DNA of 32,249 bases. Origin: a virus. Shown piece by piece: positions 1-15,422 of the stretch. The notes under the pieces were generated by a model. The model ran no database searches and was not told the origin of the DNA. It was given only the letters and a program-made list of their open reading frames with translations. Location of the stretch: positions 1 to 32,249 of IMG/VR virus record IMGVR_UViG_3300010354_000333. One strand, given 5' to 3'. A program made the position numbers and the translations under genes. Positions within the stretch are counted from its first letter, which is position 1, and the number at the start of each line of letters is the position of its first letter.

Positions 1-915
1 GAGTGATTCAGATAAGGTAGCGTACACAAGTTTAGCCTCTCTTACTGTCTTGGCGCGGTCAAAGTTTTCAATGATCTTAACCTTTTGAGTCTCAGTGAGA
101 TTGTTACGGAACAACTTGTTGACATAAAGAAGTTTAGCGTTCAAAAGATTAACTTCAGAAAGTTTGGTACGTAAGTACTTAACTGCGCTGTATGCTTCGT
201 TAAGTTCTTCTTCCATTTTCTTCATTTTCATTTTGTTTTTGCCTTCCATTTTGTTTTCTTTCTCACCTTCTTCCTCCTCTTCCTCTTCTTCGTTCAAAGA
301 AGCGAGAAGTTCGTTAAGATCGATTTCTTCGTCAACTGGTTCTTTTGCTGGCTCTTCTTCTTCCTCAGAGTCCTCTTCTTCACGGAGTGAGTTGATAATT
401 TCGTCGAGATCCAATTCTTCCTCCATTGTTTTAGTTTCGTCCGAAGATTCATCGTCCTCGAGTTCACGGAGGATTGCTTCTAACTGTTCGTCGTCATCTG
501 AGGACATATCCTCTTCATCGGAGTAGTCTTCGTCGCCGCCCATGTCATCATCACCCATGTCGTCACTGCCCATGTCATCATCACCCATGTCATCACTGCC
601 CATGTCATCATCACCCATGTCATCACCCATGTCATCATCACCCATGTCATCACTGCCCATATCTTCTTCGTCAGAAGGCATTTCTTCTTCGCCCTCCTCA
701 GAGATACCAGCAAGTTCTTTCATGCGCATTGTTTCGTCTGTCTCTTCTGCGTCCATTGCAGGCTCTTCTTCTTCCATTTCCTCACGGATCTTAGTAGAGA
801 GCATTGACTGGAGCTTTGGAGCAAACGCTTCTTCAAGTGCCAACTTAGCGCTTGCTAAGGCTGTTTCACGCACTGCTTTTGCATCAGCAATAGCTTCTTT
901 TAATAATTGATTCAT
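1..915 (-). CDS. gp22: Prohead core scaffold protein (T4 gp22-like), 3' end cut by window edge
   Basis: An open frame starts at the ATG at 915-913 and runs without a stop to the window edge (305 codons). It begins MNQLLKEAIADAKAV, then a helical stretch, then a very acidic middle with nine DMG units, then a basic Lys/Met patch and a helical segment containing NLLNAKLLYVNKLFR. Acidic, helix-rich scaffolds following the prohead protease are the T4 gp22 position and type; gp22 forms the inner core on which the capsid assembles and is then degraded by gp21. Several (L/I)-x-E sites are visible (LLKE near residue 7, then LRE, LRE, LNE, LNE), fitting proteolytic removal. T4 gp22 is about 269 residues, so this one is longer. 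The assignment rests on gene order, composition and recalled similarity to marine T4-like scaffolds. The major capsid gene probably lies next, outside the window. Confidence 0.85.
   Translation of the reverse strand, partial: MNQLLKEAIADAKAVRETALASAKLALEEAFAPKLQSMLSTKIREEMEEEEPAMDAEETDETMRMKELAGISEEGEEEMPSDEEDMGSDDMGDDDMGDDMGDDDMGSDDMGDDDMGSDDMGDDDMGGDEDYSDEEDMSSDDDEQLEAILRELEDDESSDETKTMEEELDLDEIINSLREEEDSEEEEEPAKEPVDEEIDLNELLASLNEEEEEEEEGEKENKMEGKNKMKMKKMEEELNEAYSAVKYLRTKLSEVNLLNAKLLYVNKLFRNNLTETQKVKIIENFDRAKTVREAKLVYATLSESL
538..663 (-). repeat. Acidic DMG tandem repeat within the scaffold gene
   Basis: Nine copies of a 12-15 base unit encode D-M-G followed by D or S and then further Asp residues. 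Most units are five codons (for example DDMGD) and one is four codons, so all changes stay in frame. The DNA copies are nearly identical, differing mainly in GGT GAT versus GGC AGT, which suggests recent expansion by slippage. Confidence 0.9.
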
Positions 916-934
916 TTTTTAAAAAAATTTTTAG

Positions 935-962
935 ATTGTGCGGCTATTAGTAGAGCCACAAT
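935..962 (-). other. Imperfect hairpin in the scaffold gene leader
   Basis: ATTGT, a two-base bulge and GGCT pair with AGCC and ACAAT around an 8-base loop. On the coding strand the hairpin is followed after a few bases by a run of seven T (927-921) just before the scaffold ATG at 915. It could be a weak terminator, an attenuator or an mRNA 5' stabiliser. Only the pairing is observed. Confidence 0.45.
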
Positions 963-980
963 TCGATTTATATTAAAGTG

Positions 981-1056: not shown

Positions 1057-1908
1057 TTAGCGCATTGCACTTAAATTTCGCGACATATCTCCCATACGAC
1101 TATCTGGACCTGAAATAGGAGCACTCATCCATTTGTCAATTTTCTTCTGAAGTTCCGTTTTGTCTTCAGTTTTTTCAATTTCTTGTTGGTGACTACCAAC
1201 AGCATGTATTAAGTGTTTTACTAACTTAACCATTTCAATTGCTTTACCAATCAAGGCTGTAGCTCCAATTGCGATAGACACCAAGGATGTCATGGATGGG
1301 AAGGATATAATAGCAATTGTTGCCATAAGTAACACAAACAACATCATTCCAACTATTCCAAATACTTTTTGAGTTTTTTCACCACCACCCCATTTTGCAG
1401 CCAACCATTTAAAAAACCTCTCTATTGCTTTTCCAGCAAAGCCTGCAACTGCTCCTGTGTTTTTGAGCATTGTTTGTACTTTCTTAAACCCAGCTTTTAC
1501 ATCTGCCTCGTTTTTTCCTGTTATTTTAGCAAGACTGTGTGCTAGCACTTCAATAAGAGCTGCATTACCTAGAACGTCGCCTGCTGCGTGTGCAACTGTT
1601 GCAATTGCTCCACCACCTTCTTTGAGGTATTTACGACCTTCTTGTACCTTTTGCTCTAACTCTTTAACATCCGATGCGTCTATTTTATTCAAATTACCAT
1701 TTGCATCAAGAAGCTTTGATAATAGTGCAGCTTGTACCTCTTCGTCTGTTAAATCCAGACCGGTAGCTACTACTTCGTCACCTAATTTTTTAAGTTCACT
1801 GCCTACTGATTGAGCTGTTGCTGTAATTGTCTCAACTATTCTTTGTGTTCGCTGCTCTTGTAAGATACGATAAGTAAGTTGTGCTAAGCTAATGGTAGGC
1901 CTTTTCAT
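1057..1908 (-). CDS. Putative membrane protein with a head-targeting-like N-terminus
   Basis: 283 residues from the ATG at 1908-1906, which overlaps the upstream stop as TGATG; a TTG one codon earlier is less likely. The N-terminus MKRPTISLAQLTYRILQE is basic and hydrophobic and ends in L-Q-E, like the capsid-targeting tags of other proteins here. Residues 20-150 look helical. Residues 151-175 (AVAGFAGKAIERFFKWLAAKW) are amphipathic. Two hydrophobic segments follow, about 182-203 (VFGIVGMMLFVLLMATIAII) and 205-225, then a charged tail. It sits between small head proteins and the scaffold gene. I recognise no family. A virion-packaged membrane-active protein released during DNA ejection is one possibility; a host-membrane anchor for head assembly is another. 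Both are inference. Confidence 0.75.
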   Translation of the reverse strand: MKRPTISLAQLTYRILQEQRTQRIVETITATAQSVGSELKKLGDEVVATGLDLTDEEVQAALLSKLLDANGNLNKIDASDVKELEQKVQEGRKYLKEGGGAIATVAHAAGDVLGNAALIEVLAHSLAKITGKNEADVKAGFKKVQTMLKNTGAVAGFAGKAIERFFKWLAAKWGGGEKTQKVFGIVGMMLFVLLMATIAIISFPSMTSLVSIAIGATALIGKAIEMVKLVKHLIHAVGSHQQEIEKTEDKTELQKKIDKWMSAPISGPDSRMGDMSRNLSAMR

Positions 1909-2297
1909 CAATCAATAATGTCGTTAAAATTAACAAAAACATCTATGTTATCAGGTTGCACTGTTACAACCATTCCCTTACTGTTAATGCTTTTTAATTC
2001 ACCTTGGTTGCTAATAAAATCAGCGTTGTTATATTTTTTAACTTTACCTATATTAAACTTAATAGGGTACTTTAAGTCTGGTTGTTCTTTGGCATCTGTT
2101 GTTTCTTCGTCATCAGCTCCACTACTAGCATCAGCATCAGGCTCTTCTGCACTAGCATCAGCACTTGCATCGGCCTCCTCGTCACCACCTCCTTCACCAC
2201 CTGCTGCAGCAAAGGGATTGGCTGCTGCCTCTTCTTCATCTCCCTCTGCTTCGCGCAAAGGAATTAGATCTTTAAGCTTTATCACATTAAAGTTCAT
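1908..2297 (-). CDS. Small acidic head-associated protein with PLRE tag
   Basis: 129 residues from the ATG at 2297, which overlaps the upstream stop codon. A GTG at 2285-2283, just after that stop, would give MIKLKDLIPLREA, aligning better with two other tagged proteins here (MKLINLIPLREA and MKLKQLVPLREK), so the GTG may be the real start. After the tag comes a long Glu/Asp/Ala/Ser-rich low-complexity stretch (about residues 18-70), then a small C-terminal domain of about 55 residues containing YPIKFNIGKVKKY and VQPDNIDVFVNF. The L-R-E-A junction matches a T4 prohead protease cleavage site. It is likely a head-core or internal protein; the C-terminal domain is unrecognised. Confidence 0.8.
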   Translation of the reverse strand: MNFNVIKLKDLIPLREAEGDEEEAAANPFAAAGGEGGGDEEADASADASAEEPDADASSGADDEETTDAKEQPDLKYPIKFNIGKVKKYNNADFISNQGELKSINSKGMVVTVQPDNIDVFVNFNDIID

Positions 2298-2646
2298 AGT
2301 ATCTTGATAGATTGTGCCCCATTTCTTCGTACAAAGACTCCAAACGTTGTTGTAGCTTGGATATCTCTTTTATAGTCTGTCCAAACTGCTTATTGCCTTC
2401 ACGCAAAGTCTTTAGATTACGCTTTACCGTGATTTCATCAAACCAATCTTGAGTTTCTTGTAAGGTTACTGCTTCTGCTTTTGTGACAAGCTCATTGATT
2501 TCTTCAGCAACACGCCGTAAATCTTCGGTACGATAAATTACTGATCCGTACTCGTTAAACTTTTTTATTTCCTGTATGAACGCAGCCTTTTCGTTTGTCG
2601 TTTTTTTAGGAATGTCCAAGTTCTCAATTAATTTTTTCAGTTTCAT
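2287..2646 (-). CDS. Conserved head-cluster protein, helical
   Basis: 119 residues, mostly charged and helical. The ATG at 2646 lies three bases after the preceding stop. It begins MKLKKLIE, a possible short targeting tag. The central and C-terminal motifs (KFNEYGSVIYR, TLQETQDWFDEITVKRNL, LYEEMGHNLSRYYEL) match my memory of a protein family found next to the prohead protease and scaffold genes in marine T4-like phages, with no assigned activity. Its place between protease and scaffold suggests a core or internal head component. A TATTTAT box lies 16 bases before the start, inside the preceding gene. Confidence 0.85.
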   Translation of the reverse strand: MKLKKLIENLDIPKKTTNEKAAFIQEIKKFNEYGSVIYRTEDLRRVAEEINELVTKAEAVTLQETQDWFDEITVKRNLKTLREGNKQFGQTIKEISKLQQRLESLYEEMGHNLSRYYEL

Positions 2647-2649
2647 GTC

Positions 2650-2871
2650 TTATCTTAGTTTCATAAATAATTCATTGAGTAAGTCAATTGCGTCTTGAAT
2701 TTCCTCACTTACTGGTCCGTTTTCTTCAATTTTACCGTTTAGTGAAGTTAAGAGCGATACCATCTTTTGCACTTCTCCTTTATAAGGCTTTATGTGCGTA
2801 TAATCAAACTCTTCTCTTAATATGCTTTGCACTTCTTCACGAATTAGCTTCCTAAGTTCTGTTGTTTTCAT
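2650..2871 (-). CDS. Small head-cluster protein with LIREEVQSILRE N-terminus
   Basis: 73 residues. The first 20, MKTTELRKLIREEVQSILRE, contain two (L/I)-x-E sites (I-R-E and L-R-E) and resemble a leader that I recall recurring on many small T4-like phage proteins. The rest is a short acidic helical region (VQKMVSLLTSLNGKIEE and IQDAIDLLNELFMKL). It directly follows the protease gene, separated by 71 bases with no clear structure. Probably an internal head or core peptide; no enzymatic signature. Confidence 0.75.
   Translation of the reverse strand: MKTTELRKLIREEVQSILREEFDYTHIKPYKGEVQKMVSLLTSLNGKIEENGPVSEEIQDAIDLLNELFMKLR
2663..2669 (-). promoter_or_regulatory. TATTTAT box before the 2646 start
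   Basis: Coding strand TATTTAT, 16 bases before the ATG at 2646 and inside the 3' end of the upstream gene. One of eight such boxes in the window, all directly before minus-strand starts. Role inferred. Confidence 0.4.
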
Positions 2872-2942: not shown

Positions 2943-3539
2943 TCACATTGCGGATATTATATCGTTAATTAGAGCGTGCACTTTTGCATATCTATCACTC
3001 TTTACTTGAGCTACCGATTCGTTTAGTGGTGACATAAAAGCCCCTTGAGTCGATGGATTGGATACCAAATCCCAACAAACAATCTCAAAGTCATCTTGAA
3101 CTTCTACTTTACCCTCACCTATATTTTTTACACTACCCATTCCACGTGAGCTAATACCTAAGCGAATGCCTGATTTCAAAAGCTCCTTAGCAATGTTGCC
3201 AGATGGTGTGCTAAGTATTTCAATTCTGCCCATAAGATCCTCACCTTCCCACCATAAATCTATGACGTTGTGTGATACATTTTGCAAGTTAACAACTTGT
3301 GAATCTGGATGATCCAGTTCACCTAAGGCTCTACGTTCTTTAATAAAAGTTTGCTTATACTTCTCAGCTTCACGCTTTAATATGTCTTGTGGATACTGTC
3401 TGCCATTTTGATTAGTGGCGTCAGCTCTTTGCATAACTCCAGAGAGAATTACCTTTCCGTTGTTTTTTGCCATAGACTCGTTAATCTGTTCTGGTGTAAC
3501 GGACAGACAACCTATTGAATCTATTAGTAGCGCTTTCAT
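2943..3539 (-). CDS. gp21: Prohead core protease (T4 gp21-like serine protease)
   Basis: 198 residues, close to T4 gp21 (212). It processes scaffold, core and capsid proteins at (L/I)-x-E sites during head maturation and destroys itself. Visible motifs: GELDHPDS with candidate catalytic His76, GISSRGMGSV with candidate Ser131 (or Ser130), and a conserved Asp/Trp stretch VCWDLVSNPST around Asp157; this is the fold class shared with herpesvirus assemblins. The early segment VMQRADATNQNGRQYP is also typical. The enzyme carries candidate self-cleavage sites, I-N-E at 19-21 and L-N-E at 172-174, which would trim both ends. It lies in the T4 order between portal/core genes and scaffold. The assignment is firm; the exact third catalytic residue is not. 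Confidence 0.93.
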   Translation of the reverse strand: MKALLIDSIGCLSVTPEQINESMAKNNGKVILSGVMQRADATNQNGRQYPQDILKREAEKYKQTFIKERRALGELDHPDSQVVNLQNVSHNVIDLWWEGEDLMGRIEILSTPSGNIAKELLKSGIRLGISSRGMGSVKNIGEGKVEVQDDFEIVCWDLVSNPSTQGAFMSPLNESVAQVKSDRYAKVHALINDIISAM

Positions 3540-3547: not shown

Positions 3548-4300
3548 TTATTTAAAAATAGCTTTAATCTTTTGAATTATTTCCTGTTCCCTGTTAATGT
3601 TTCCTAGTTCTACCTCTTTGTCGTAGTCTTGGTAGATTAGCATGTCTCCTTGTAGATCAAATGCTAAAGGTTCTCCTGCTATGTACACGTCAACGTGGTG
3701 TACATTTCCTTCTTTTGCAATTTCTACATCTTCAGGCTTAATTGGTTGTTGAGCTAAGTTAAACAGCTTTACGATTTTGTTTTTTAAACTATTGGCCTCT
3801 ATTTCTTTTAGATTTGCAATCTCTCTTAAACGCTTATTTGCTTCGTTAAGCCTTTTGTTTATTTTCAAAAGAGCTTCGTTTGTTCGTCTCCAAAGCTTAT
3901 TATCACCTATTTGTGCTTCGTTTTTTAACTTAGCTGAGTGTTTTATGATTTGGTTTATCTCGTTTATTTTGCGGTTGATTTCTAGAATTGCTTCGTTTAT
4001 TTTTTTGTGTTGTGGTAAACTTGCATCTTCTTTAAACTGTTTGTAGTTTGCTTCTTTTATGTCAGACAAATGCTTTCCTTGATCTTTATACCCTATAAAG
4101 AATTTTTTCTTTTTAGGTGGTTTTACATGATATGCAGTTGATGCATCAAGTCCTTTTTTACTACCCTCAGCTTCGGAGTCTCCTACAAAAGCTTTTGGCG
4201 TAGCGTACGCTCCAACTCCATCTGTTGTACTACCTTCCTTTAACTTTTTGTTAAGCTTTTTAACAAACTTTTTTATTTCGCTTAGATTATTTTGCTGCAT
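3548..4300 (-). CDS. Putative prohead core protein rich in protease sites
   Basis: 250 residues; the start overlaps the end of the upstream gene by 14 bases. The N-terminus MQQNNLSEIKKFVKKLNKKLKE ends in an L-K-E site. Next comes GSTTDGVGAYATPKAF, a motif I recall from head-cluster proteins of marine T4-like phages. Residues 80-170 form two similar helical blocks with repeated NEA units (INEAILEINRKINEI and NEALLKINKRLNEANKRLRE) and about eight (L/I)-x-E sites. The C-terminal 70 residues (EIAKEGNVHHVDVYIAGE onward) look like a small alpha/beta domain. It occupies the place of T4 gp67/gp68 between portal and protease, so a core protein that the protease cuts into pieces is likely. Sequence identity to gp67 or gp68 is not claimed. 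Confidence 0.8.
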   Translation of the reverse strand: MQQNNLSEIKKFVKKLNKKLKEGSTTDGVGAYATPKAFVGDSEAEGSKKGLDASTAYHVKPPKKKKFFIGYKDQGKHLSDIKEANYKQFKEDASLPQHKKINEAILEINRKINEINQIIKHSAKLKNEAQIGDNKLWRRTNEALLKINKRLNEANKRLREIANLKEIEANSLKNKIVKLFNLAQQPIKPEDVEIAKEGNVHHVDVYIAGEPLAFDLQGDMLIYQDYDKEVELGNINREQEIIQKIKAIFK

Positions 4301-5141
4301 GTTTCAATTCTTTTAGAAGTTCATGGTATAGCAACAACGATAGCACATTTTCTTCCTTAACATTGCGTATTTTTTCATACTTATTCATTAAAGATATTGC
4401 TTCATTTAATTTGATACGCACTATTTTATCTGATACATTCTTTGCTTGCTTTTTTAACTGTAATTTTAGCTCGTAAGCTTGTTTAAGCATAAATTCACGC
4501 AGTGTATCTGTATTTGAAACATTGTATATGTACTCTCTAAGTATTAGCCTTTGTTTTGATGATAGTGTAGCATACTTTGTGTTAAATTTGTCAATCATTA
4601 GCTTATAAGCCAACAACCGTACTTCTTCATCTTGCTTTTTGTAAGCAGCTAGTGTATCAGCGTTTTCAACTACTTTACGCTTATTGCGCGTTATATGTTC
4701 AATTATATTGAACTTACTATCAACTATTTGCGTTGTTTGTGTAATTGATCCACCTTCAAATAAGGTGTATATTGAGGCAAAAGTTTTGTAATTGTGCACT
4801 TTAGTACTAAAAAAACTATCTAGGTCATAGTGAGCTTTTATTTCCTTGATTAGTTCATACTTTTCTTTTTTAAGAGCCTCATTTTTTAGCTTCTTTCTTA
4901 GTGAAATTACTGTGCTAATTAACTCTTTAGCTTTTGCTTCACTTTTATAGCTTTCATTTATTAAAGTTTGGTACATTACCAACTCTTTACCTAAAGTTGA
5001 CGATGCTTTAAAGTGCTTTTTGATCAATCCTAGTGCAGGCGATGGGTCTATCCCTCTCATTGTATCGGAAGTTACCTGCCTAGTTAGCAGTTCAAATAAA
5101 ATAATTGTGTTTTTTATTTTATTATGGCTTGATTTTTTCAT
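4287..5141 (-). CDS. Conserved head-cluster protein between portal and protease
   Basis: 284 residues, almost entirely charged and helical. It begins MKKSSHNKIKNTIILFELL followed by TRQVTSDTMRG and later has LGKELVMYQTLINESYKS and YKTFASIYTLFEGG. I recall this family next to the portal gene in T4-like phages from marine bacteria, where its function is not established; it may be a core or neck-region component. Unlike its neighbours it has no obvious (L/I)-x-E leader within the first 15 residues. The ATG lies 26 bases after the portal stop, with a TATTTAT box 6 bases before it. Confidence 0.8.
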   Translation of the reverse strand: MKKSSHNKIKNTIILFELLTRQVTSDTMRGIDPSPALGLIKKHFKASSTLGKELVMYQTLINESYKSEAKAKELISTVISLRKKLKNEALKKEKYELIKEIKAHYDLDSFFSTKVHNYKTFASIYTLFEGGSITQTTQIVDSKFNIIEHITRNKRKVVENADTLAAYKKQDEEVRLLAYKLMIDKFNTKYATLSSKQRLILREYIYNVSNTDTLREFMLKQAYELKLQLKKQAKNVSDKIVRIKLNEAISLMNKYEKIRNVKEENVLSLLLYHELLKELKHAAK

Positions 5142-5167: not shown

Positions 5168-6982
5168 TTAATCGTCTAAAATGTTCGCTTCTGATAACAG
5201 TGTTGAACCGTTTTTATTACCTTTTTTTCCTAATGTCTGCTTTAAAGCTCTGTCTTTCTTTAAATCATCTATTAGTTTGCCATGACCTTCGTATACATTC
5301 CTATTTGATTTAGCACCTACCGGATCCCAACCCAATGGATGATCATGTGTACCATACGTACCTGGCTCCTCAGGACGACCAGCTCCTGGCCAACCGCCTT
5401 GTGGAGCTTTTTCGTCATACCCCTTTGGTACACCACCATTGCCCTTGTAGAGGCTTGCTAAGTCGTGTGGAGTACCAAATGACATTCCTGTTTTAACAGG
5501 ATCGTTGCCTTCTGTTTTAATTTGTTCAAGACGGAATTGTATTTTATAATCCTGAACAAGCCTTTCCTGCTCTCTTAGATACTGCTCTTCCGTCATATTA
5601 AACAGATTTTCATATACCCACTGTCGACTAAAAAGCTTTTTTTCAATCATATCACCAGCAAGAGTAACTTTTGTAGCATATAGCTCAGCTCGCTCTTTAT
5701 CATAAACTGTGGACCCTACGGTAAGGTTTAATTCAAAATCTACTAAAGATTCATCATTAAAGCCTTGCGAGTAGAGGTGTATAATTGCTACTTTATAGAG
5801 CTCACTCACAATAATTCTCTGTATCCTCTCTACCGTTCTGGCAAAGCGAAAATCTTGAGCTGCTAGGGTTGATTTACCTGATATATCTTCTTCAAATCCT
5901 AAAAAAGCTTTTGGTATTTTTAAAGCTCCAAGTAAACGACCTTTTAAGTATTCTATGTCCGGAATACTATCGTATTGTATTCCTGATATACTTTCTACTG
6001 CTGTTGCACTTTCTCCTCCTCGAACTGGAAAGTAAAAATCTTCTAGGAGGTTCATCATGTTGTACTTTAAGTTGTACTGTCCTGTTTCTGGATCTACAAA
6101 TGGGACTTTTTTAATGCGATTGATCATTCCCTCCATGTATGCGTCAACTTCGTTTGGTGGAATATTACCAATATCAATCTTAAATACACGCTTATCTGGA
6201 GCTCGCATGATGCGATGGATTAACATAGCATCTTCCATTAAAGTTATTTGTTTCCACACTTTACGAGCTGGCTCTATTAAAGAGCGGCCGTATGGTAAAA
6301 AGTTTGTATCGGTTAGTAACCGAAAGTGCGCAACTTCATAGTTTTCAAATTCTTCTGTCTCCGTAGCAACTACATGCGATCGAGCTGTTAGCGCTGAAAA
6401 GTCTCTCTTGAATCTTACTCGGTTAGGATTTTCTGGATCAAAGTTCTCTTCTCTAATTATTTCGTATGCAGCCATAGGTTCAACTCCAATGATTCCATAC
6501 TTTTCAGCTATGTTTAGTTTTAAGAAGAAATCTCCATACTTAATCATGTTGCGAGTCCAAGGCCATAAATTAAACTCAATATTAAGAATATCGTAAAATA
6601 AGTTATGTAAAACTTTTTGAACTTTTTCGTCTGATGATTTAATTACCAGCACTTCTCCAGTTTCCGACTTAGTAGTACATTCATCTGCGTAGATATCTAA
6701 TGCTGATGATATTATACTGTCCGTGTCCATAGCTTCGTAGTCCTTAAATAACTCTAAACGAGTAGCTAAGTGCAGCTGTCCGTGGTAGTAAGAAAACCCA
6801 GGCATGTTTTGGTACATGCGTGAAAACCTATCAATACGCCTATTTTGGTCTATATTACCGCTTGATTGAATGCGGTCAGTATCAATAACTTTTAGTTGGT
6901 TACCACCAACATTACGTATAATAACGTCAGTTGAAAATAGTCGTTGTAACCTTTGAAATAGAGAAGGTTTATTCTCTGCCAT
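5168..6982 (-). CDS. gp20: Portal vertex protein (T4 gp20-like)
   Basis: 604 residues against 524 for T4 gp20. The portal forms the dodecameric ring at one capsid vertex through which DNA is packaged and ejected, and on which the prohead nucleates. Typical stretches are DTDSIISSALDIYADECT (near 85), a long helical stem with LMEDAMLIHRIMRAPDKRVF and GNIPPNEVDAYMEGMINRIK (about 245-290), and GRLLGALKIPKAFLGFEED (about 340-360). The C-terminal 100 residues are Gly/Pro/Lys-rich and include a His/Asp/Gly stretch (YGTHDHPLGWDP), which looks like a disordered extension and accounts for much of the extra length. It follows the terminase gene by only 31 bases. The start is the first ATG after a TATTTAT box. 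Confidence 0.95.
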   Translation of the reverse strand: MAENKPSLFQRLQRLFSTDVIIRNVGGNQLKVIDTDRIQSSGNIDQNRRIDRFSRMYQNMPGFSYYHGQLHLATRLELFKDYEAMDTDSIISSALDIYADECTTKSETGEVLVIKSSDEKVQKVLHNLFYDILNIEFNLWPWTRNMIKYGDFFLKLNIAEKYGIIGVEPMAAYEIIREENFDPENPNRVRFKRDFSALTARSHVVATETEEFENYEVAHFRLLTDTNFLPYGRSLIEPARKVWKQITLMEDAMLIHRIMRAPDKRVFKIDIGNIPPNEVDAYMEGMINRIKKVPFVDPETGQYNLKYNMMNLLEDFYFPVRGGESATAVESISGIQYDSIPDIEYLKGRLLGALKIPKAFLGFEEDISGKSTLAAQDFRFARTVERIQRIIVSELYKVAIIHLYSQGFNDESLVDFELNLTVGSTVYDKERAELYATKVTLAGDMIEKKLFSRQWVYENLFNMTEEQYLREQERLVQDYKIQFRLEQIKTEGNDPVKTGMSFGTPHDLASLYKGNGGVPKGYDEKAPQGGWPGAGRPEEPGTYGTHDHPLGWDPVGAKSNRNVYEGHGKLIDDLKKDRALKQTLGKKGNKNGSTLLSEANILDD

Positions 6983-7013: not shown

Positions 7014-8585
7014 TTACAGTAACCATGTTAAATCTTCGTCACGGCCGTTAACATTATGTTTCCAACTACCGTTTTGTTGAATGGCTCCTGTGTAGATGTT
7101 TGCTGCGTTTCTAGTTGCATTTAAAGCTGCCTTTGTTAAATCAATTCCAGCTTGTCTAAGTCGTAAGGCTGTGTCTCGAACCCAGATGCCTTGACACATG
7201 CACATAACAAGGTCGTCGTTATATCCTGATGCTGCTTGAGCTTTTCCTTCTCTCCATATAAATGTTGTAAGTTCATCAACAAACCGTTTACTTCGCAATA
7301 TAAGCCCTTTTTCTCGTGCAAGCAAATCAAACTTACTAATTGTCAATGGTCTAATTTTATGCGACATAGTGAAGCCCGCTACCATATCGGATTTGTTAGC
7401 TAAGTCATATCCTTTACTCAAAAAAGCATCTGAGTCTAGTACATCGCTTTTGTATGTATAGTACAAATTCTTATAACCTCTGTCTAACACTTGTTGTATG
7501 GTTGCCCAACCTACGTTATTATTTTCTATTACAAGTAAGGCATCGTTCCATTCAGTAGCAACACTAACAAGCATGTTTCCAAAATCTTTTGTTGTAAGCT
7601 GTCCTTTATACTCTGCTACTTGTGCTAAAGTGTCTACGTCTAATATGTGAAACGCTGAGTAGTCGGATCCATCGCCACGTGCTACGTCAGCTGTAACAAT
7701 ATAGCTTTTTGTGTAGTTGGGGATTTCCCATACCCAGAAATTACCGTCTATGCCTCTTTTTTCAACTGGTTCTAGTGCTGTCGTCTGCATGTACCATTGA
7801 AGTAGTACGGGGTCAACTACTGTGTTACCTGAGCTGCTAAAGTCACAGTCACATTCTTGTGCTGCTAATCTAGCTCCTAATTCTGCATCTTGTCTGTCTC
7901 TCCATTCCTGATCTCTTTCAGGGTGCACTTGCCACGGAAGTCTGATTGTCTTAAACTTATTTTCTCCAGCTTCTGCTTTGATCCAAATTTTGTGAAAAAA
8001 GTTGCCAGTACCATTTGGGGTTGATAGGATGATACCTTTACCACCAGTAGATAGTGTCTGTTGTAGGGATGCCCACAACTCTTCTGCTCCATCTACGAAC
8101 GCAGCTTCATCTATAATAACAAGAGAAAGTGCTTCTGAACGTCCTGATGTTCCTGTGCTTGCTACTGCCTTAATTTGTGATCCATTGGACAGACGCATTG
8201 AAAGTTTATTACTTTCTGTACAATTCATCTTTAACCAACTTGGTAGATTGTCAAACATAACTCGAACCTTTGTTACAAGATTCTTAGATGTGTTTTGGTC
8301 AATTGCTACAACAAGTACGTTTTTGTCACTATGGAAAAGAATAAGCCACAAACTATATGCAGCTATTAAAGTACTAATACCAAGCTGTCGAGATTTCAAT
8401 ACGATGCTTCTGTCATATTGTAAAAAATCTTGCAGAGTGTTTTCTTGATAGGGATATAGATGGAAAGGGATCTTTCCTCTTGTAGGATGCTGTATCATGC
8501 AGTACTTATTAATAAAGTACGCAGGATTTGTGGCACACTTAATGTACTCCTCCTTGATTATCTGTTTGAGGGTCTTTTCGGACAT
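7014..8585 (-). CDS. gp17: Terminase large subunit (T4 gp17-like ATPase/nuclease)
   Basis: 523 residues; packages DNA into the prohead with an N-terminal ATPase and cuts concatemers with a C-terminal RNase H-like nuclease. Walker A variant SRQLGIST at 65-72, Walker B LVIIDEAAF with Asp159-Glu160, coupling motif STPNGTGN at 188-195. Nuclease acidic residues: Asp300 and Asp308 (TADVARGDGSDYS), Glu354 (VIENNN) and Asp457/458 (GYNDDLV). All key residues are present, so it should be active. T4 gp17 is 610 residues; this is a compact version lacking part of the N-terminus. No small terminase (gp16) is recognisable just upstream. A promoter box is not visible directly before its start. Confidence 0.97.
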   Translation of the reverse strand: MSEKTLKQIIKEEYIKCATNPAYFINKYCMIQHPTRGKIPFHLYPYQENTLQDFLQYDRSIVLKSRQLGISTLIAAYSLWLILFHSDKNVLVVAIDQNTSKNLVTKVRVMFDNLPSWLKMNCTESNKLSMRLSNGSQIKAVASTGTSGRSEALSLVIIDEAAFVDGAEELWASLQQTLSTGGKGIILSTPNGTGNFFHKIWIKAEAGENKFKTIRLPWQVHPERDQEWRDRQDAELGARLAAQECDCDFSSSGNTVVDPVLLQWYMQTTALEPVEKRGIDGNFWVWEIPNYTKSYIVTADVARGDGSDYSAFHILDVDTLAQVAEYKGQLTTKDFGNMLVSVATEWNDALLVIENNNVGWATIQQVLDRGYKNLYYTYKSDVLDSDAFLSKGYDLANKSDMVAGFTMSHKIRPLTISKFDLLAREKGLILRSKRFVDELTTFIWREGKAQAASGYNDDLVMCMCQGIWVRDTALRLRQAGIDLTKAALNATRNAANIYTGAIQQNGSWKHNVNGRDEDLTWLL

Positions 8586-8601: not shown

Positions 8602-8988
8602 TTAGAAACTCCTATCAGCTTCTAGATCTTCAATTCTTGACTCTGCGTATGCATCAGCGTAATCATCAATAAGCTTTGCTAGCTTAGATAAGTCTTGGCT
8701 TGGTACCGAAAACTTTGAGCTGAAGTCTCCTAACATTTTATCGATTTTATTTCCAGCATCTCGTATTTCTCTAGTGATGCTGACATCGTTTTGATTTGTT
8801 ATCACATAACCTTCGTTAGTTTCCTTTTCTGCTTTGTAGTTTTTATCGATGTAGTTGAAGAACTCTTTTTTCTTCTCACCATCTAACTCACCAATTGAGC
8901 TAATACCAAACTTATCCATAGCTTTTTTAAAAAACTCTTGATAAGCTGTGTCTTCTTGTAATCTTTTTATTATGTGCGATGTTTTCAT
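8602..8988 (-). CDS. Small internal-protein-like head protein
   Basis: 128 residues. The leader MKTSHIIKRLQE ends in L-Q-E, like T4 internal protein leaders. It is followed by a charged helical domain with YQEFFKKAMDKFGISS and KKKEFFNYIDKNYK, a pattern I recall from small T4-like phage proteins without known activity, then a second helical part ending in YADAYAESRIEDLEAD. The ATG overlaps the stop of the preceding gene by one base and the gene ends 16 bases before the terminase. T4 gp16 (small terminase) sits here in T4, but I see no sequence reason to call it that. It is more likely an internal or core head protein. Confidence 0.8.
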   Translation of the reverse strand: MKTSHIIKRLQEDTAYQEFFKKAMDKFGISSIGELDGEKKKEFFNYIDKNYKAEKETNEGYVITNQNDVSITREIRDAGNKIDKMLGDFSSKFSVPSQDLSKLAKLIDDYADAYAESRIEDLEADRSF

Positions 8989-9299
8989 TAGTGTATTGTA
9001 TTTGTTTTAACCGTTTTTAATATAGTAAGCTTTGCTTCGCTGCTAAAGTCCATTGAAGTTAGAAACTGCGTAATAATATCAACCATTGCATCTGCTGTTG
9101 CTAACTCTGGTTCACGTCTCAATCTGTCCACAATTTTTTCAGCAAATTGTGTTGCTTTGCTTGGACCTTCTTCTTCTGGTTCTGGCTTAGGTTGCTCTTC
9201 GGGAGTAGCTTGTGCTTCTGGTTGCTCTTCGTCAGCTTCCATCAAAGCTTTGATCTCCTTACGTACTATTGATCTAAGTTGTGATTCTTTTATGCGCAT
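8988..9299 (-). CDS. Small tagged head-cluster protein
   Basis: 103 residues. The leader MRIKESQLRSIVRKEIKALME ends in an L-M-E-A cleavage-like junction. An acidic Pro/Glu/Gln linker (residues 22-47) follows, then a compact helical C-terminal domain of about 55 residues (KATQFAEKIVDRLRREPEL, ADAMVDIITQFLTSMDF). The tag-linker-domain layout matches the 2297 protein although the C-terminal domains are unrelated. The start has a TATTTAT box 16 bases upstream. Function unknown; packaging into the head is inferred from the leader. Confidence 0.75.
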   Translation of the reverse strand: MRIKESQLRSIVRKEIKALMEADEEQPEAQATPEEQPKPEPEEEGPSKATQFAEKIVDRLRREPELATADAMVDIITQFLTSMDFSSEAKLTILKTVKTNTIH

Positions 9300-9322: not shown

Positions 9323-9988
9323 TTAGTAAACTTTCTTATACGATAACATTTTTGGTTCGTGAAGATACTCTAACGCATCAAAACCAAAATACTTTGCTTT
9401 ATATTGAGCTTGTGCATACTCATCGTAATCGTATTCACGATCAAAGTACTCTTTTAGATTTAAGTAAGCTTCATGCCAATTTATTTGCAATAAAAATTTT
9501 TCACATAAATTTATATGACTCTTGTATTGCTCAAAATCATGAAAGTCGTGTTCTATGTGCATGAGCTCAACTACCTTTTCTTCTTTAATGTAGTCAACAC
9601 AAAAATCAACCATGTACTTAGGTTTAATGTTGAGTATTTTAACCAATCTTGGATACTTCTTGCTAAGGCGAGTGAGCTGTTCAAGCGCAGCTCCTTTGTA
9701 AGCGTATCTAGTATTAAGGTGACAGTGATCCAAAAATACATGAGGGTCTGATTTTTCTTGTATCATCCAATCTTGAATGCAGGCTGCTGCATCTGTTGGA
9801 CTTCCAGGTACTAATACGTGTCCTGGTATGTTGTTGTGTTGATGGTATAGGCTTTCGATAAAAGTTAGTTCATAGCCAAATCTATCAAAAAATTCAGGAG
9901 CCACTAATCTGTCAAAGACAGACTCATCGGGTAGTGGCTCACTTATATAAGGATGGGGGACTAGCTTATACTCTAGTATCTTGAACAT
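9323..9988 (-). CDS. Conserved phage protein of unknown function
   Basis: 221 residues, no membrane segments and no leader tag. Striking motifs are VFLDHCHLNTRYAYKGAALEQL, then a Lys-rich stretch ending KILNIKPKYMVDFCVDYI, and a C-terminal aromatic, acidic region (FDREYDYDEYAQAQYKAKYFG). I recall similar proteins with a DHC...Y.G.ALEQL segment in marine T4-like phages, always as hypotheticals. Clustered His, Asp and Cys residues might bind metal, but no known catalytic motif is complete. The ATG at 9988 overlaps the stop of the previous gene by one base, indicating translational coupling. Confidence 0.8.
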   Translation of the reverse strand: MFKILEYKLVPHPYISEPLPDESVFDRLVAPEFFDRFGYELTFIESLYHQHNNIPGHVLVPGSPTDAAACIQDWMIQEKSDPHVFLDHCHLNTRYAYKGAALEQLTRLSKKYPRLVKILNIKPKYMVDFCVDYIKEEKVVELMHIEHDFHDFEQYKSHINLCEKFLLQINWHEAYLNLKEYFDREYDYDEYAQAQYKAKYFGFDALEYLHEPKMLSYKKVY

Positions 9989-10395
9989 TACTTTTGGTCT
10001 TCAATAACCTTAAGGAAGTTTGTTTGTGCAGCACCAAAGTTCTTTTTATCTTTGTTGTCAAATGGAATACGCTCAATTTGACCATCCTTCTGCTTCATTG
10101 CACACACAGTTGCATCAAAACGCTCAAGACCAGTTAGAGTGTAAACAATACCAAAGATTGCTGTTTTTTCTGTGATCTTGGCAACAAGCTTAGCATCGCT
10201 TATGATCATATCCAGCCAACCAAAATGAGTAACGTCTGCTACAAAGATGTGCTCTTCACTTTTAGTTCCTAAAAACTTAAATAAAGGCTTGTATCCATGA
10301 GCTGTTTGAAATTCACGGAAGTATGGAGTAGCGATCAACTCTGGTGAAGTTGGTTCGTCCGCTTCTCTTAGTGGTATTAGATTGATTAGCTTCAT
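9988..10395 (-). CDS. Small protein with PLRE head-targeting-like tag
   Basis: 135 residues beginning MKLINLIPLREADEPTSPE. The first 12 residues nearly match those of two other proteins here (2297 and 12995), and the L-R-E-A junction fits prohead protease cleavage. The body is a mixed alpha/beta domain (FREFQTAHGYKPLFKFLG, EEHIFVADVTHFGWLDMII, TAIFGIVYTLTGLERFDATV) that I do not recognise. Mature packaged form would start at Ala12. It lies 11 bases after a 26-codon ORF and ends overlapping the next start. Confidence 0.8.
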   Translation of the reverse strand: MKLINLIPLREADEPTSPELIATPYFREFQTAHGYKPLFKFLGTKSEEHIFVADVTHFGWLDMIISDAKLVAKITEKTAIFGIVYTLTGLERFDATVCAMKQKDGQIERIPFDNKDKKNFGAAQTNFLKVIEDQK

Positions 10396-10501: not shown

Positions 10502-10711
10502 TTATTTAGATAAACAGCGTAGCAAGATGGATAGCCCAAAGAACAACCCCGCTACACAGTACAAAACGAAATTGGCGCTCCAAAGGCTTCCAGTCGTCTG
10601 TATTAGCCAATACTGTACTATGTCGAATCCAAGAGGATTGAAGAACAGCGCCAGCATCATGCTCCATGTTGCTAGAGTTTGCTTTGATATTTTTTTGTTG
10701 TCTACTATCAC
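10502..10711 (-). CDS. Small two-helix membrane protein
   Basis: 69 residues from a GTG at 10711; the frame is open for only six codons upstream and has no ATG there, so the GTG is the best start. Two hydrophobic segments, about 15-35 (TWSMMLALFFNPLGFDIVQY) and 45-65 (SANFVLYCVAGLFFGLSILL), are separated by a short TTGSLW loop. Small phage proteins with an LFFNP...TGS...YC.(A/S).LFFGL pattern are familiar to me from T4-like phages, without known function. Membrane location is inferred. An overlapping frame of similar length (10506-10718) is hydrophilic and less convincing. Confidence 0.65.
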   Translation of the reverse strand: MIVDNKKISKQTLATWSMMLALFFNPLGFDIVQYWLIQTTGSLWSANFVLYCVAGLFFGLSILLRCLSK

Positions 10712-10738
10712 CGTCCATTTAGGGTACGTTTAGTTAAC

Positions 10739-11752
10739 TTACTTTTTAAGCCGCTTAATTTCTTGCAAAACGGCTTTGCGAATAGCTTTACGTAATTTTT
10801 GTTCAGCTATAGTGGGTACTCCTTGTTGCAGTTGAGCAACTGTGTTTTTTTGACCTCCAGGCACGTCATCTGCTTGAGGCATCACACCACGACCTGGTGC
10901 ACCTGCCACTGGTTGTGATGTAGACTGCATTGAGCTTACATTTCCCCAAATATAGTCGGCAATTTTTTCTTTGCTCTCTAACTGTTTTGCTTTTTTAAAA
11001 GCTTCTATGACTGCTGGATCGGTTATGGTACTTATAACGTACTTCTTTAGACCATCCTCATTCATTTGAAGCAAGTTTTTTCCTTTTACACTTTGACTTG
11101 GAATTTTGGAAGCTCCCGCAGCAACGATCGCCAATTGGGTAAGTTTTAATGCATCTAACGGATTTTTGATATCCGGATTTGTAAAATTGTAAGCTACAAT
11201 TTTTGCATCCTTATTCATTGCGTATAGTTGTGACCAACGGTGGTGGCCATCCACAATGTATTTTCCATTAAAAACAATAATAGGAGCAGCAACCTTTACA
11301 CTACCACCTTTAAGTGCATATGCCGCGGCATCAGGTTTAGTTAGTGGAAATGCTAAGCTTTTATCTACGTCAATTTCGTTTTGTGTTGGTATTAAAGCTG
11401 TCACAGCAATTGCTGTAAGGTTTACAGTTGACTTTGTTGCGTCTGCATCCTTTACAAACTGCCTAAACTTAGGATCTGCTGTGAATTTGCCTAATGCTGC
11501 TACAAATCCTGGGTAGTTTTGCTTAAAAATAATTTTAAGTTTTTTGTCGAAGTCTTGTTCCTCAGCTTCTTTGATGAATTTTTTAAATTTCATGTCTGTA
11601 ATGTTGTTAGTATTTTCTTTAGCGTTGATATGTAAGGCTGCCATATATTTACGCAAAGCTTCTTTGTTGCCAGCAGTAGCACCAACACGCTTACCAGTGT
11701 CTTTTTTATACACTACATACTTGTCTCCTTGTTTTTTAACTTTGTATGGCAT
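10739..11752 (-). CDS. ParB-like (Srx-fold) domain protein
   Basis: 337 residues from the ATG at 11752, eleven bases downstream of the previous stop; a GTG at 11818 would overlap that gene by 56 bases and is less likely. Residues 1-50 are a small basic domain (MPYKVKKQGDKYVVYKKDTG). Next comes MKFKKFIKEAEEQDF at about residue 54, an apparent capsid-targeting leader with an I-K-E-A junction; its Met (codon at about 11593) may be a second start. The central domain has IIVFNGKYIVDGHHRWSQLY, the GHHR signature of ParB/sulfiredoxin-like domains, which bind or cleave nucleotides or DNA. The C-terminus is Gln/Pro/Gly-rich and ends in a basic helix (KLRKAIRKAVLQEIKRLKK). Substrate unknown. Confidence 0.8.
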   Translation of the reverse strand: MPYKVKKQGDKYVVYKKDTGKRVGATAGNKEALRKYMAALHINAKENTNNITDMKFKKFIKEAEEQDFDKKLKIIFKQNYPGFVAALGKFTADPKFRQFVKDADATKSTVNLTAIAVTALIPTQNEIDVDKSLAFPLTKPDAAAYALKGGSVKVAAPIIVFNGKYIVDGHHRWSQLYAMNKDAKIVAYNFTNPDIKNPLDALKLTQLAIVAAGASKIPSQSVKGKNLLQMNEDGLKKYVISTITDPAVIEAFKKAKQLESKEKIADYIWGNVSSMQSTSQPVAGAPGRGVMPQADDVPGGQKNTVAQLQQGVPTIAEQKLRKAIRKAVLQEIKRLKK

Positions 11753-12203: not shown

Positions 12204-12693
12204 TTATCTTCTCAATATTTAATTTAAGCTGATGTAACTCACTATTACCTATTTGCTCGATAGTCTGTTGTGTATCATCTATCCAGTTTTCTTTTACACC
12301 ATCTTCGGTGTACACTACTGTTTTCTGCTTTGCAAAATCTTTCACAAATTGCTCTAAGTCATCGTACATAGACTCCATGTTTGCTTTGTATAGAGCATTT
12401 GTATATTCCTCCAATTTACCAGCTTTTGTGATTTCATGCTCCATATCAACAACGCAATTAAAACACATACGGTACGTGTTCCAAGCCCACTTATGCACTT
12501 GACTTTTCATATTAGGTACTTTGCATTTTGGACATGCAATTGGTGTAATAATTTGTTTACGGAGCGATTCCATTTTAGTAACGGTCTTTTTTATACCGTT
12601 TTTTATAGTCCAGGTTTTACCCGACTCTTCCCAGATATCCCCCTCTTTATGCTCTATAAAAGCTTTTTTTTGCGATGTAACGTGATAACTCAT
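12196..12693 (-). CDS. Zinc-ribbon protein of unknown function
   Basis: 165 residues. A probable zinc ribbon is formed by Cys54-x2-Cys57 (CPKCK) and Cys77-x2-Cys80 (CFNC). Before it lies a segment with WEESGKTWTIKNGIKKTVTK, and after it a helical acidic region. Similar short zinc-ribbon proteins occur near head and neck genes in T4-like phages, with no assigned role. The ATG overlaps the end of the preceding gene by 4 bases and its end overlaps the next gene, so it is translated as part of a tight operon. Confidence 0.8.
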   Translation of the reverse strand: MSYHVTSQKKAFIEHKEGDIWEESGKTWTIKNGIKKTVTKMESLRKQIITPIACPKCKVPNMKSQVHKWAWNTYRMCFNCVVDMEHEITKAGKLEEYTNALYKANMESMYDDLEQFVKDFAKQKTVVYTEDGVKENWIDDTQQTIEQIGNSELHQLKLNIEKINA

Positions 12694-12995
12694 CTTGATT
12701 GATATTTGTATTTAGTCAATACATTTTGTATTTGTTTGTCAAACCTGCGTAATGCTCTACGCAACTCTAACCTAATACCTTCGTTAATTTTTTCTTCTTC
12801 TGATCGATCAGACACTCCCCTATAGAACTCTTTACCACCAGTACTACTAATACTAATTGTAAAAGTTGCTTCTGGTGATCCTGTTTCACCTACTTCATTA
12901 AATCCCTTGTCAAAGTGGAGTGTTATGTTTGTTGTTGGTGAAGTGGCTATTGCCTCTTTTTTTTCTCTTAAAGGAACTAGTTGTTTTAGTTTCAT
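12690..12995 (-). CDS. Small protein with PLRE head-targeting-like tag
   Basis: 101 residues beginning MKLKQLVPLREKKEAIATSP, the third copy of the K-L-x-x-L-(I/V)-P-L-R-E leader in this window. The rest has a beta-rich middle (ATFTISISSTGGKEFYRG) and a basic helical C-terminus (IRLELRRALRRFDKQIQNVL). No family recognised. The ATG lies 3 bases after the stop of the three-domain protein. Candidate packaged internal protein, by inference from the leader. Confidence 0.75.
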   Translation of the reverse strand: MKLKQLVPLREKKEAIATSPTTNITLHFDKGFNEVGETGSPEATFTISISSTGGKEFYRGVSDRSEEEKINEGIRLELRRALRRFDKQIQNVLTKYKYQSR

Positions 12996-12998
12996 TTG

Positions 12999-15422
12999 TT
13001 AAAATCTTAAATATCCTAATATTTGATTGATAGGTGCAAATGCTCCGGTTAGCTTATAAAGCTTTCCCTTATACTTAAATACTAGACCTTCCGTCGGAAC
13101 AATGGCATCAAAGCCACCAATATCTTTTAATCTCGTTAATTCGCGTTTTAAAAACTTTATTGCAGCGTCTGCATCTTCTATTGTTTCTGTATCTGCTGCT
13201 CGTTGTATTCCTCGAATTGCTGCCGATACGTCTTGTTTAACTTTCAACTTTGCTTCATCGGGACTAAGTGTTGTTAGGTTTTCGATGTTTCGTAAAACTC
13301 GTACTCCTAATTTTAGGAAGAGCAATTCAACTGGCTTGAGTGCTATTTTTTTTGTGGGCTCTACTTGCGTCTTGTCAAAATCTACCATCCACGATGTAAA
13401 CGCTTGATCTTGTATCTGACTTTTAATGTCAGTTATTTTTGTCGACTTATCAGTGAATGCCCAACGCTTTACTAGTCCGTCCAACACTTCTGTTGGTATT
13501 TTGTAGTTCAACTCAGTACTCTTTTTTTTGATAAAAGCCGTCCACCAATTTTGCACATAGTCTTTTACAGTCTTATCATCGCCTAAATTATACTTTGTTC
13601 TGATCTTATCTACTTCAGCTGTGAATTGCTTTAATTGGTTTGGTAGATCTAAATCTGCTTTTAGTTTTGCCGGGTCTGTTGTTTTTATTGTAAAAGTTTT
13701 TTGCTGATTTGCTTGTATTACGTCTAGTGCTTTTTGCAGTTCGTATATACCAGCCACATCCTCATCTTGTACGTTTCCATTTATATCAAAGGTTTTAAAG
13801 TGATGTAGCCTTAGTTGAGCTGCTCCGTACGGTATTACATTTGCTGTTTCAGGAAACAAAACTTCTAGACTAATAAACTTTTTTCCATTTTCAAAAAATT
13901 GCGCTTTTTGTTGTGGATTAAGTTTATTCATTGCTGTTTCTAGATCATTCATTGTTTCTACAAATGCCGTTTGTATTGGTCCACGACCACTAAACATTTT
14001 AGAAATTTGATCCGTTGTTAAGCTGTTTTCACCGTAGTTTTTTACTTGACCTTTATTTCTTGCTGCTCGTATGTTACCATCCTTGTAGGTAATCATAAGA
14101 TTTTGGCCATCTAACTTTTCTTGTGCATACTCCAATTTACCACCTAATGCAGCTTCAATCATTGCTTTAATTTCCTTAAAAGTCAAGTCTAAATCTTCAT
14201 AAGGATGAGCTAAATGGCCAGCAGCTCCTCCTTCCATTAAAGGTGTGGCTGGTTCATTTGAGTTTAACACGTTTTGTGTTCGTATTTTAGCTGTTGGATG
14301 TTTTGTTTTTAGTTGATCAACTGCTGCTATATTTTTTGGTGAATCGTCTAAAAAGTAGATATCATCGTACCCTTGTAATATTTGTTTCTCTATCCAGCTT
14401 GATTTTTTATATGGATCACTACTTCCAACAGCAATTACTGGCACGTTAATTCCAATTGTTTTTAAATAATCGCTGACTGCTTTTCCATCACTTCTAGCAG
14501 TTAATACTACTACCTTACGATCATCCATCGATGCATTAAGCATACGTTTCATTATGCTTGTATACTTTTTTAACTCAGTAGCTGATTTAATTGGACCTTC
14601 AAATTCACTAAAATCAAACACATCACCTTCATCCGGTTGGTACACTGCGTACTGTGCCGGTGTCATTGTGATTTTTTTTCCTGTGATTTTTTTTATTATG
14701 TGTATTTTGCTTGTGGTTTGCACAAGAGTATCATCAAAATCAAAAACTCTTAGCTTACCTTCGTCTAAGGTCTCTTTAGCGTTTTTTTTTAAAAGATCAA
14801 ATATCTTATCAGTTACTGCTTTGTCTGCTACGTTAGGGTAGTTTGTTGCAAAAGACTCTTTGTCGTTATTTTTTAAATCAGCTCTTAGTACGCTTGCGCT
14901 AATTCCTTTTCCATTCTCACTCTTTCCTGGAACGTATTTAGCTGCTTTTTCTGATCTGTTCTTATATGTGATAGGTGATGAATCGAGTGGTAACTCTCTT
15001 ACAAAGATTTCCGGTCTAGCATATTTACCTTCAGTGTGTCCTTTAACAAACTCCTTTACTCTAGCATAATCCTTATCTTTTGAACTAGCTGCTAATGCAT
15101 AAGTTCCTGGTTTTGCAGTTTCCATATACTTGTATGCTGCTGCTAAAGGACTGTTAACTTCTGTTTGTTGAACTAGAATCTTTGGTTCGTTTTTGATTAA
15201 CTCACGCCATACAGCTATGCTCTGTTCTCTGGTAATGCCATCACGAGGTTCTGGACCTATTAATACGATTACTTGCGATACTGTTGGTTCGGTTGCATAT
15301 CGTTTTGCTAATTCAAAATGACCACCATGTGGTGGTTTAAATCCTCCAGGAAATAGTACGACAGTTCCTTCGCTCATTTCAGTTAGCAAAGACTCAACTA
15401 AAAAATTACTAAGACTACTCAT
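12999..15422 (-). CDS. Three-domain nucleotidyltransferase / HAD phosphatase / ATP-grasp-independent ligase protein
   Basis: 807 residues in one frame. Domain 1 (about 20-215): HIGH-type nucleotidyltransferase, GGFKPPHGGH at 26-35 and ISASVLR at 174-180, as in NMN or cytidylyl transferases. Domain 2 (about 222-390): HAD phosphatase with DFDDT at 228-232, VVVLTAR at 304-310 and FLDDSPKNI at 357-365, as in polynucleotide 3'-phosphatases. Domain 3 (about 400-807): covalent nucleotidyltransferase/ligase with EKLDG (Lys436), RNKG at 455-458, ISLEVLF (Glu520), EGLVFK (Glu778) and KLYKL (787-791), which match ligase motifs I, Ia, III, IV and V; about 220 residues separate III and IV. The N-terminus MSSLSNFLVESLLTE resembles a capsid-targeting leader. 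A nucleic-acid (perhaps RNA) repair role is inferred; substrates are unknown. No P-loop kinase is present, so it is not a standard Pnkp. Confidence 0.88.
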   Translation of the reverse strand: MSSLSNFLVESLLTEMSEGTVVLFPGGFKPPHGGHFELAKRYATEPTVSQVIVLIGPEPRDGITREQSIAVWRELIKNEPKILVQQTEVNSPLAAAYKYMETAKPGTYALAASSKDKDYARVKEFVKGHTEGKYARPEIFVRELPLDSSPITYKNRSEKAAKYVPGKSENGKGISASVLRADLKNNDKESFATNYPNVADKAVTDKIFDLLKKNAKETLDEGKLRVFDFDDTLVQTTSKIHIIKKITGKKITMTPAQYAVYQPDEGDVFDFSEFEGPIKSATELKKYTSIMKRMLNASMDDRKVVVLTARSDGKAVSDYLKTIGINVPVIAVGSSDPYKKSSWIEKQILQGYDDIYFLDDSPKNIAAVDQLKTKHPTAKIRTQNVLNSNEPATPLMEGGAAGHLAHPYEDLDLTFKEIKAMIEAALGGKLEYAQEKLDGQNLMITYKDGNIRAARNKGQVKNYGENSLTTDQISKMFSGRGPIQTAFVETMNDLETAMNKLNPQQKAQFFENGKKFISLEVLFPETANVIPYGAAQLRLHHFKTFDINGNVQDEDVAGIYELQKALDVIQANQQKTFTIKTTDPAKLKADLDLPNQLKQFTAEVDKIRTKYNLGDDKTVKDYVQNWWTAFIKKKSTELNYKIPTEVLDGLVKRWAFTDKSTKITDIKSQIQDQAFTSWMVDFDKTQVEPTKKIALKPVELLFLKLGVRVLRNIENLTTLSPDEAKLKVKQDVSAAIRGIQRAADTETIEDADAAIKFLKRELTRLKDIGGFDAIVPTEGLVFKYKGKLYKLTGAFAPINQILGYLRF

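Follow-up and report, generated by a model that had tools for sequence, protein, structure and literature searches.

The first 15,422 nucleotides of a 32,249-nucleotide fragment of viral DNA (IMG/VR record IMGVR_UViG_3300010354_000333, positions 1 to 32,249; the whole fragment is called the window) encode a series of unrelated proteins that begin with short leaders ending in (L/I)-x-E, next to a prohead protease of the T4 gp21 family. From comparative sequence analysis, we consider it highly probable that these leaders are T4-type capsid-targeting sequences (CTS) belonging to an expanded and diversified system. The source is a T4-like virus of aquatic bacteria, and nearly all genes of the window lie on the minus strand, including a T4-type head cluster of terminase, portal, S77 prohead protease and an acidic gp22-like scaffold whose gene runs off the left end. 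An initial annotation had listed twelve leader-bearing N-termini, all of which are present on the minus strand, and a gp21-like protease, whose identity is clear and which is encoded alongside portal and scaffold:

2943..3539, minus strand: prohead protease, Peptidase_S77 (T4 gp21 family; PF03420, E=1.7e-29)

A leader rule was fixed on the window and used unchanged in all later tests. It calls for a [LIVMF]xE site with its Glu at residue 6-26, no more than two acidic residues, no fewer basic than acidic residues, and three or more hydrophobic ones. Between positions 1 and 15422, 15 of 20 genes carry such a leader, against 4.8 ± 1.8 for shuffled N-termini (maximum 12 in 500) and 3.8 ± 1.6 when internal segments serve as the control; beyond 15422 the rule matches two of nine genes. 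The nearest isolates by portal protein are Microcystis phage Mel-JY01 (53.5%) and Flavobacterium phage vB_FspM_immuto (51.5%; hereafter immuto). In the complete immuto genome, leaders are found on 24 of the 31 genes of the head zone (7.3 ± 2.3 expected) and on 46 of the 181 genes outside it (31.9 ± 4.8 expected), and are therefore not equally frequent far from the head cluster (77% versus 25%). Because the rule was written with the immuto N-termini already listed, the tests on T4, on related contigs and on cyanophage S-CREM2 are cleaner. Eighty IMG/VR contigs are related to the window via the protease (49-87% identity). Their proteins were clustered by body (residues 31 on), and related copies thus count once. 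Before the capsid gene, 32 of 66 families have a majority leader, again above the shuffled level (13.6 ± 2.9, maximum 22 in 200 shuffles); after it, the count is 10 of 39 (6.0 ± 2.0 shuffled), and 18 of 140 distinct N-termini match, which is the chance level (17.7). As a positive control, the rule recovers ipI, ipII, ipIII, gp22 and gp24 of T4. Small phage proteins rich in Lys, Leu and Glu could often match (L/I)xE near their start by chance, and the background is indeed high: besides the immuto genes outside the head zone, 25 of 103 ordinary T4 genes match (about 24%), so that the call for any one gene may be mistaken and has to be backed by orthologs. Given the excess in the window and in the immuto head zone, together with near-identical leaders on unrelated bodies (see below), the probability that chance accounts for the leaders is negligible.

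The tagged genes of the window are as follows, with a hyphen marking the candidate cut site and nucleotide (nt) positions given for leaders or sites:

1..915, minus strand: gp22-like acidic scaffold, running off the window edge; leader MNQLLKEAIADAKAVRE-TALA; conserved site VRE-T, nt 865
1057..1908, minus strand: tagged protein; leader MKRPTISLAQLTYRILQEQRTQRIVE-T, nt 1831-1908
1908..2297, minus strand: tagged protein; leader MNFNVIKLKDLIPLRE-A, nt 2250-2297
2287..2646, minus strand: tagged protein; leader MKLKKLIE-N, nt 2623-2646
2650..2871, minus strand: tagged protein; leader MKTTELRKLIREEVQSILRE-E, nt 2812-2871
3548..4300, minus strand: probable core protein; leader ending KLKE-GST, nt 4235-4300
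8602..8988, minus strand: tagged protein; leader MKTSHIIKRLQE-D, nt 8953-8988
8988..9299, minus strand: tagged protein; leader MRIKESQLRSIVRKEIKALME-A, nt 9237-9299
9988..10395, minus strand: tagged protein; leader MKLINLIPLRE-A, nt 10363-10395
10739..11593, minus strand: ParB-like (DGHHR) protein; leader MKFKKFIKE-A, nt 11567-11593
12690..12995, minus strand: tagged protein; leader MKLKQLVPLRE-K, nt 12963-12995
12999..15422, minus strand: fusion protein of 807 amino acids; leader MSSLSNFLVE-S, nt 15393-15422

Most of the cut sites listed initially are supported by ortholog N-termini, except those of the genes starting at 915 (LLKE-A) and 1908 (ILQE-Q), which were probably misplaced. In the former, nearly all relatives have Asp in place of the Glu (LLKD), which makes AVRE-T at residue 17 the probable conserved site; in the latter, ILQE-Q is not conserved and IVE-T (residue 26) is the conserved site. 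For the gene starting at 2871, a second site, ILRE-E (residue 20), agrees with the relatives (VIKE-A) no less well than LIRE-E does. RLQE-D of the gene starting at 8988 is conserved, and since an additional leader precedes this body in some relatives, it may belong to the body. The frame of 10739-11593 is open upstream to 11752/11818, and its leader may therefore lie inside the protein where two modules meet. Two further matches to the rule were set aside as probable false positives: that of the terminase (7014-8585), as the immuto terminase has no leader, and that of 4287-5141, which belongs to the start of a conserved domain and has Leu at P1'.

In the 1908-2297 and 9988-10395 families, 91% and 90% of distinct ortholog N-termini, respectively, pass the rule. 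In the 12690-12995 family, Leu at P3 and Glu at P1 are conserved while several leader positions drift (10-20% consensus), as expected of a protease site and not of a helix alone. The protease has its own conserved [IL]xE-S site (QINE-S, residue 21, nt 3477-3539), possibly a self-cleavage site, and the capsid protein of the relatives, whose gene lies outside the window, carries QL[IVL]KE-G at about residue 54, which corresponds to the site in T4 gp23. These patterns bear on the proposal that the leaders are amphipathic N-terminal helices with another purpose (membrane or DNA docking, translation or stability), in which the Glu would be incidental and uncleaved. The leaders are basic and hydrophobic, AlphaFold2 (AF2) places a helix at residues 3-18 of the 807-residue protein, and cleavage is a step that we infer. 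Against the proposal stand the conservation of P3 and P1 amid drifting neighbors, the same motif at the capsid-protein site and at fusion junctions, and an excess over shuffled N-termini that falls mainly in the head zone and in a small number of cassettes, and we regard it as very unlikely.

The suggestion that the leader acts as a movable sorting tag is well supported by comparative data: along with the zone-specific enrichment, near-identical leaders occur on non-homologous bodies, leaders are swapped between orthologs, one enzyme family can exist in tagged and untagged versions, and tagged proteins have been reported from virions of S-CREM2, another T4-like phage. Immuto gp3, gp76, gp92 and gp77 have a common leader type, MENFDLKKFLVENKLTxNS (pair scores 70-100), and bodies that score at chance (20-46); gp230 and gp83 share the leader MKKQILSEQFxRMQxLAGIITE. 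The body family of 1908-2297 stands in relatives behind at least six unrelated leaders, nearly all of which end in hydrophobic-x-Glu. In a 165-kb relative (contig of L078, 165609 bases), nine tagged genes form a cassette some 90 kb away from the head cluster (L126:8609-14438), in one run broken only by an open reading frame (ORF) of 60 amino acids. The leaders are near-identical: MIKLAEILNE, MIKLKDILNE, MMKLKNILLE, MIKLKDILFE (twice), MIKLKDILYE, MIKLNNILLE, MKLKGIVKDIVLE and MKLKDILKE. The mean similarity of the bodies, which include an HAD phosphatase and a possible GNAT, equals the shuffled level, and the top-scoring pair shares a domain.

The same enzymes are also found with and without the tag. 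NT5C (5'-nucleotidase) bodies are tagged in this group (MIKLINILSE-S, MIKLSNILE-T, MKKVMGNLADLLLE-E) and start directly at the enzyme in phages Atu_ph07, RHph_I1_9 and RBC11. NMNAT-like proteins carry T4-type leaders (MKSFFQFLSE-A, MKKFSAFLTE-A, MKKFSEIIE-A) in cyanophages and one Methylophilales phage, and no leader in jumbo phages RaK2 and GAP32.

Several other proteins of relatives were noted in passing. The tagged protein at L126:10460-11215 has a start, MIKLKDILFE-AKQVGIIYHYTSYSRAIDIVKSGKL, that loosely recalls ADP-ribosyltransferase-like domains, with no family match and no PDB sequence match; T4 Alt is ADP-ribosyltransferase-like. A tagged protein of 248 amino acids (L020:907-1653, leader MIKLKDLLSE) resembles by eye NADPH-dependent FMN reductases or flavodoxins, with no Pfam match. 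Immuto gp80 (L082:23189-23944) is tagged (MKKSQLRQIIKE) and contains DUF5661, with a weak match to the T4 RegB endoribonuclease (E=0.0056). At L133:18124-18996 (158124-158996 of the contig of L078), a putative Ntn hydrolase (AAT family, E=4.6e-4, below cut-off) has MIKLRNLLHELNE directly before CVIARC, and cutting behind LNE would leave the presumed catalytic Cys exposed. Pfam and PHROG searches assigned almost no functions to the small tagged proteins, and profile and sequence searches of the PDB gave nothing useful for two cargo proteins and the ligase part of the 807-residue protein.

By its sequence, the 807-residue protein resembles a polyprotein cargo whose modules are separated by conserved cut sites:

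Residues 20-210: nucleotidylyltransferase
Residues 222-380: HAD phosphatase
Residues 398-807: RNA-ligase-like module
LDE221-G, P1 codon 14760-14762, minus strand: internal candidate cut site
LME397-GG, P1 codon 14232-14234, minus strand: internal candidate cut site

The first module has a nucleotidylyltransferase fold of the HIGH superfamily (AF2 and Foldseek; PPAT/NadD, probability 1.00, E down to 4.5e-5), with an HxGH-type motif in the conserved core FPGGFKPPHGGH. The second resembles the phosphatases of polynucleotide-kinase phosphatase families (phrog_415). In the third, an EKLDG motif of the KxDG type is invariant, and the top Foldseek matches are RNA ligases, albeit weak (E=0.006, probability 0.87), with Pfam RNA_ligase below cut-off. 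The leader, M[SN]xLxx[FY]LVE, is conserved except in L101/L102. Directly before the ligase part, [LI]xE-GG is found in 15 of 15 orthologs (variants with Met at P4-P3 included), and the region preceding it differs among them in length and content. Modules are also encoded alone behind leaders of their own: a ligase homolog in jumbo phage LR756500 (T4-like leader MKFLKSYEEFLNENLILE-GGSYGH), an HAD protein in L041 (MFNLTELLNE, 35% identity to the HAD module of the window), and another HAD protein in the remote cassette (MIKLAEILNE), where one further domain exists both standalone (ILYE-IGDASAKPF) and as the C-terminal module of a fusion (MLRE-IGDGSAKAF). In the simplest reading, tagged genes would have been fused in frame with their cut sites retained, and a single leader would bring in several enzymes. 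Immuto gp88 was considered as a counterpart and dropped for its poor alignment.

In the mechanism proposed here, the N-terminal helix would dock each tagged protein on the assembling prohead core, and the co-encoded S77 protease (2943-3539) would then cut after the Glu of (L/I)-x-E. The leader fragments would exit, the mature body would remain with the DNA, and bodies that are not part of the core would be delivered into the host. In this view, the tag is a mobile unit that recombination has joined to many unrelated bodies, whole enzymes included. In the case of the 807-residue protein, one leader would probably import three enzyme modules, to be separated by the protease at the conserved linker sites.

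The listed genes had originally been taken together as a cargo set packaged inside the head. Their tagging stands, but several of the proteins are probably prohead core or scaffold and not delivered cargo (1-915, whose C-terminus matches the scaffold encoded directly before the capsid gene in relatives, and probably 3548-4300). This could hold for most of the set: the leaders would be real head-targeting tags, and the proteins would mainly be parts of the prohead core or scaffold that are cut up and expelled, little or none being delivered. The set includes the scaffold and sits among head genes, and the T4 core/scaffold proteins gp22, gp67 and gp68 are cut up likewise (PMC5694885, PMC9026906). 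However, some tagged bodies are enzyme-like (nucleotidylyltransferase, HAD phosphatase, ligase-like, NT5C, possible GNAT), one cassette is remote from the head genes, and tagged enzymes have been detected in S-CREM2 virions, which makes such a general role in the core unlikely.

The virion data come from cyanophages. NMNAT-like proteins were found in virions of S-SCSM1, S-CBWM1 and S-SZBM1 (PMC9602691, PMC10665884), and a virion proteome has been published for S-CREM2 (PMC10665884). In a test that covered only part of the S-CREM2 genome, the rule matches 8 of 15 virion-detected non-structural or hypothetical proteins and 6 of 58 undetected ones (Fisher one-sided P=7.7e-4). A T4-type pattern, which was written after the S-CREM2 sequences had been seen and is therefore descriptive, matches 6 of 15 versus 1 of 65 (P=1.0e-4); the six are a SAM hydrolase, a Cas9-like nuclease, a kinase, a cytidylyltransferase/NMNAT and two hypothetical proteins. 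The authors state that contamination of the CsCl preparation cannot be excluded (PMC10665884); the tags on the detected proteins lead us to favor packaging. The virion-detected Cas9-like nuclease (ORF12, L119:7704-10313) has a T4-type leader-like FASFMAE-A that ends at residue 25. Nilsson 2020 (PMC7077304) makes no mention of immuto virion proteomics.

Capsid targeting by T4-type leaders remains the preferred reading, and several points weigh against it in addition to the high background of the rule and the limits of the S-CREM2 comparison. The site of 3548-4300 often lacks a hydrophobic P3 in relatives, L101/L102 have FLVD at the first site of the 807-residue protein (the second site, E15, being kept), and (L/I)xE sites also occur inside its ligase domain. 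Moreover, cleavage, packaging and injection in this phage are all inferred. More tentatively, the prohead protease may double as an enzyme that matures the cargo. With tagged genes joined in frame, one leader would import a polyprotein, whose enzymes would be freed inside the head at leader-like junctions and some perhaps activated by the cut (LNE before the presumed Ntn hydrolase Cys in one relative). The outcome would be a large, exchangeable stock of injected enzymes, in which the nucleotidylyltransferase-phosphatase-ligase set could target host NAD or RNA damage as soon as infection begins. It is a possibility on which we would not yet rely.

No match for the window was found among phage isolates in a near-identity search. 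The remaining genes of the head cluster are:

5168..6982, minus strand: portal (gp20), without leader (PF07230, E=7.6e-66)
7014..8585, minus strand: terminase large subunit (PF03237)

Elsewhere on the minus strand, a single protein of 1055 amino acids (19970-23137) apparently joins both subunits of the gp46/gp47 (SbcCD-like) recombination nuclease, and a big tail-like protein (27985-32238) contains many TTIIEPDTDPFTxxFADGIDLTKTRGIS repeats. A conserved small membrane protein (ALFFNPLGFDIVQYWL...) is encoded at 10502-10711; the frame of the ORF that overlaps it (10506-10718) is probably not the correct one. Within the scaffold, positions 480-710 encode a run of near-exact DDMGDDDMGSD acidic repeats.

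Phages deliver proteins besides DNA, and which ones is known for few phages. If the preferred reading is true, a short N-terminal signature beside an S77 protease would make it possible to predict, from sequence alone, which proteins are injected in many uncultured T4-like phages and would help to tell cargo from contamination among the enzymes in virion proteomes. The three internal proteins of T4 would thereby be extended to an exchangeable delivery platform.

Among known systems, the CTS system of T4 (IPI-III, Alt, gp24 and gp22, with gp21 as protease) is the closest in kind. In T4 a leader of ten residues is enough for import; positions 4 and 7 are important for targeting and positions 8 and 10 for processing, which Asp at position 10 of IPIII blocks; the T4 authors already proposed the CTS as an evolutionary route to load varied proteins (PMC9026906). 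Both systems have an S77 protease in the head cluster, short leaders ending in (L/I)xE on non-homologous bodies, and a capsid-protein propeptide with the same motif (here in relatives), and the T4 gp24 leader MAKINELLRE-S resembles those of the window. No homologs of the T4 internal proteins were found. In the phiKZ/SPN3US ejection proteins, a Glu-specific prohead protease likewise trims head cargo at several sites per protein, with A/S/G at P3 and propeptides that often exceed 100 residues (PMC5694885). In contrast, P3 is L/I/V in the window and leaders span 8-26 residues; the pattern of (A/S/G)-x-E sites with long propeptides is not seen here. The cyanophages S-CREM2, S-SCSM1, S-CBWM1 and S-SZBM1, with virion-associated NMNAT, kinase and SAM hydrolase, have a nucleotidylyltransferase of the same superfamily as that of the window detected in their particles, and cyanophage copies have T4-type leaders such as MKNFSSFLTE-A. 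In the available parts of those papers (PMC10665884, PMC9602691), virion detection is not tied to a CTS and contamination is left open; the window enzyme differs in its leader and in its fusion to HAD and ligase-like modules. The system thus fits the T4-type CTS, and its kind is not new. What is new is its scale and form: about a dozen or more tagged genes compared with the handful of T4, leaders of several types (MKLINLIPLRE, MIKLKDILxE, MKxxxLRxxIxxE...LxE), enzymes that carry tags, tag cassettes far from the head genes in a relative and, in multi-module fusions with internal sites, what is likely polyprotein cargo.

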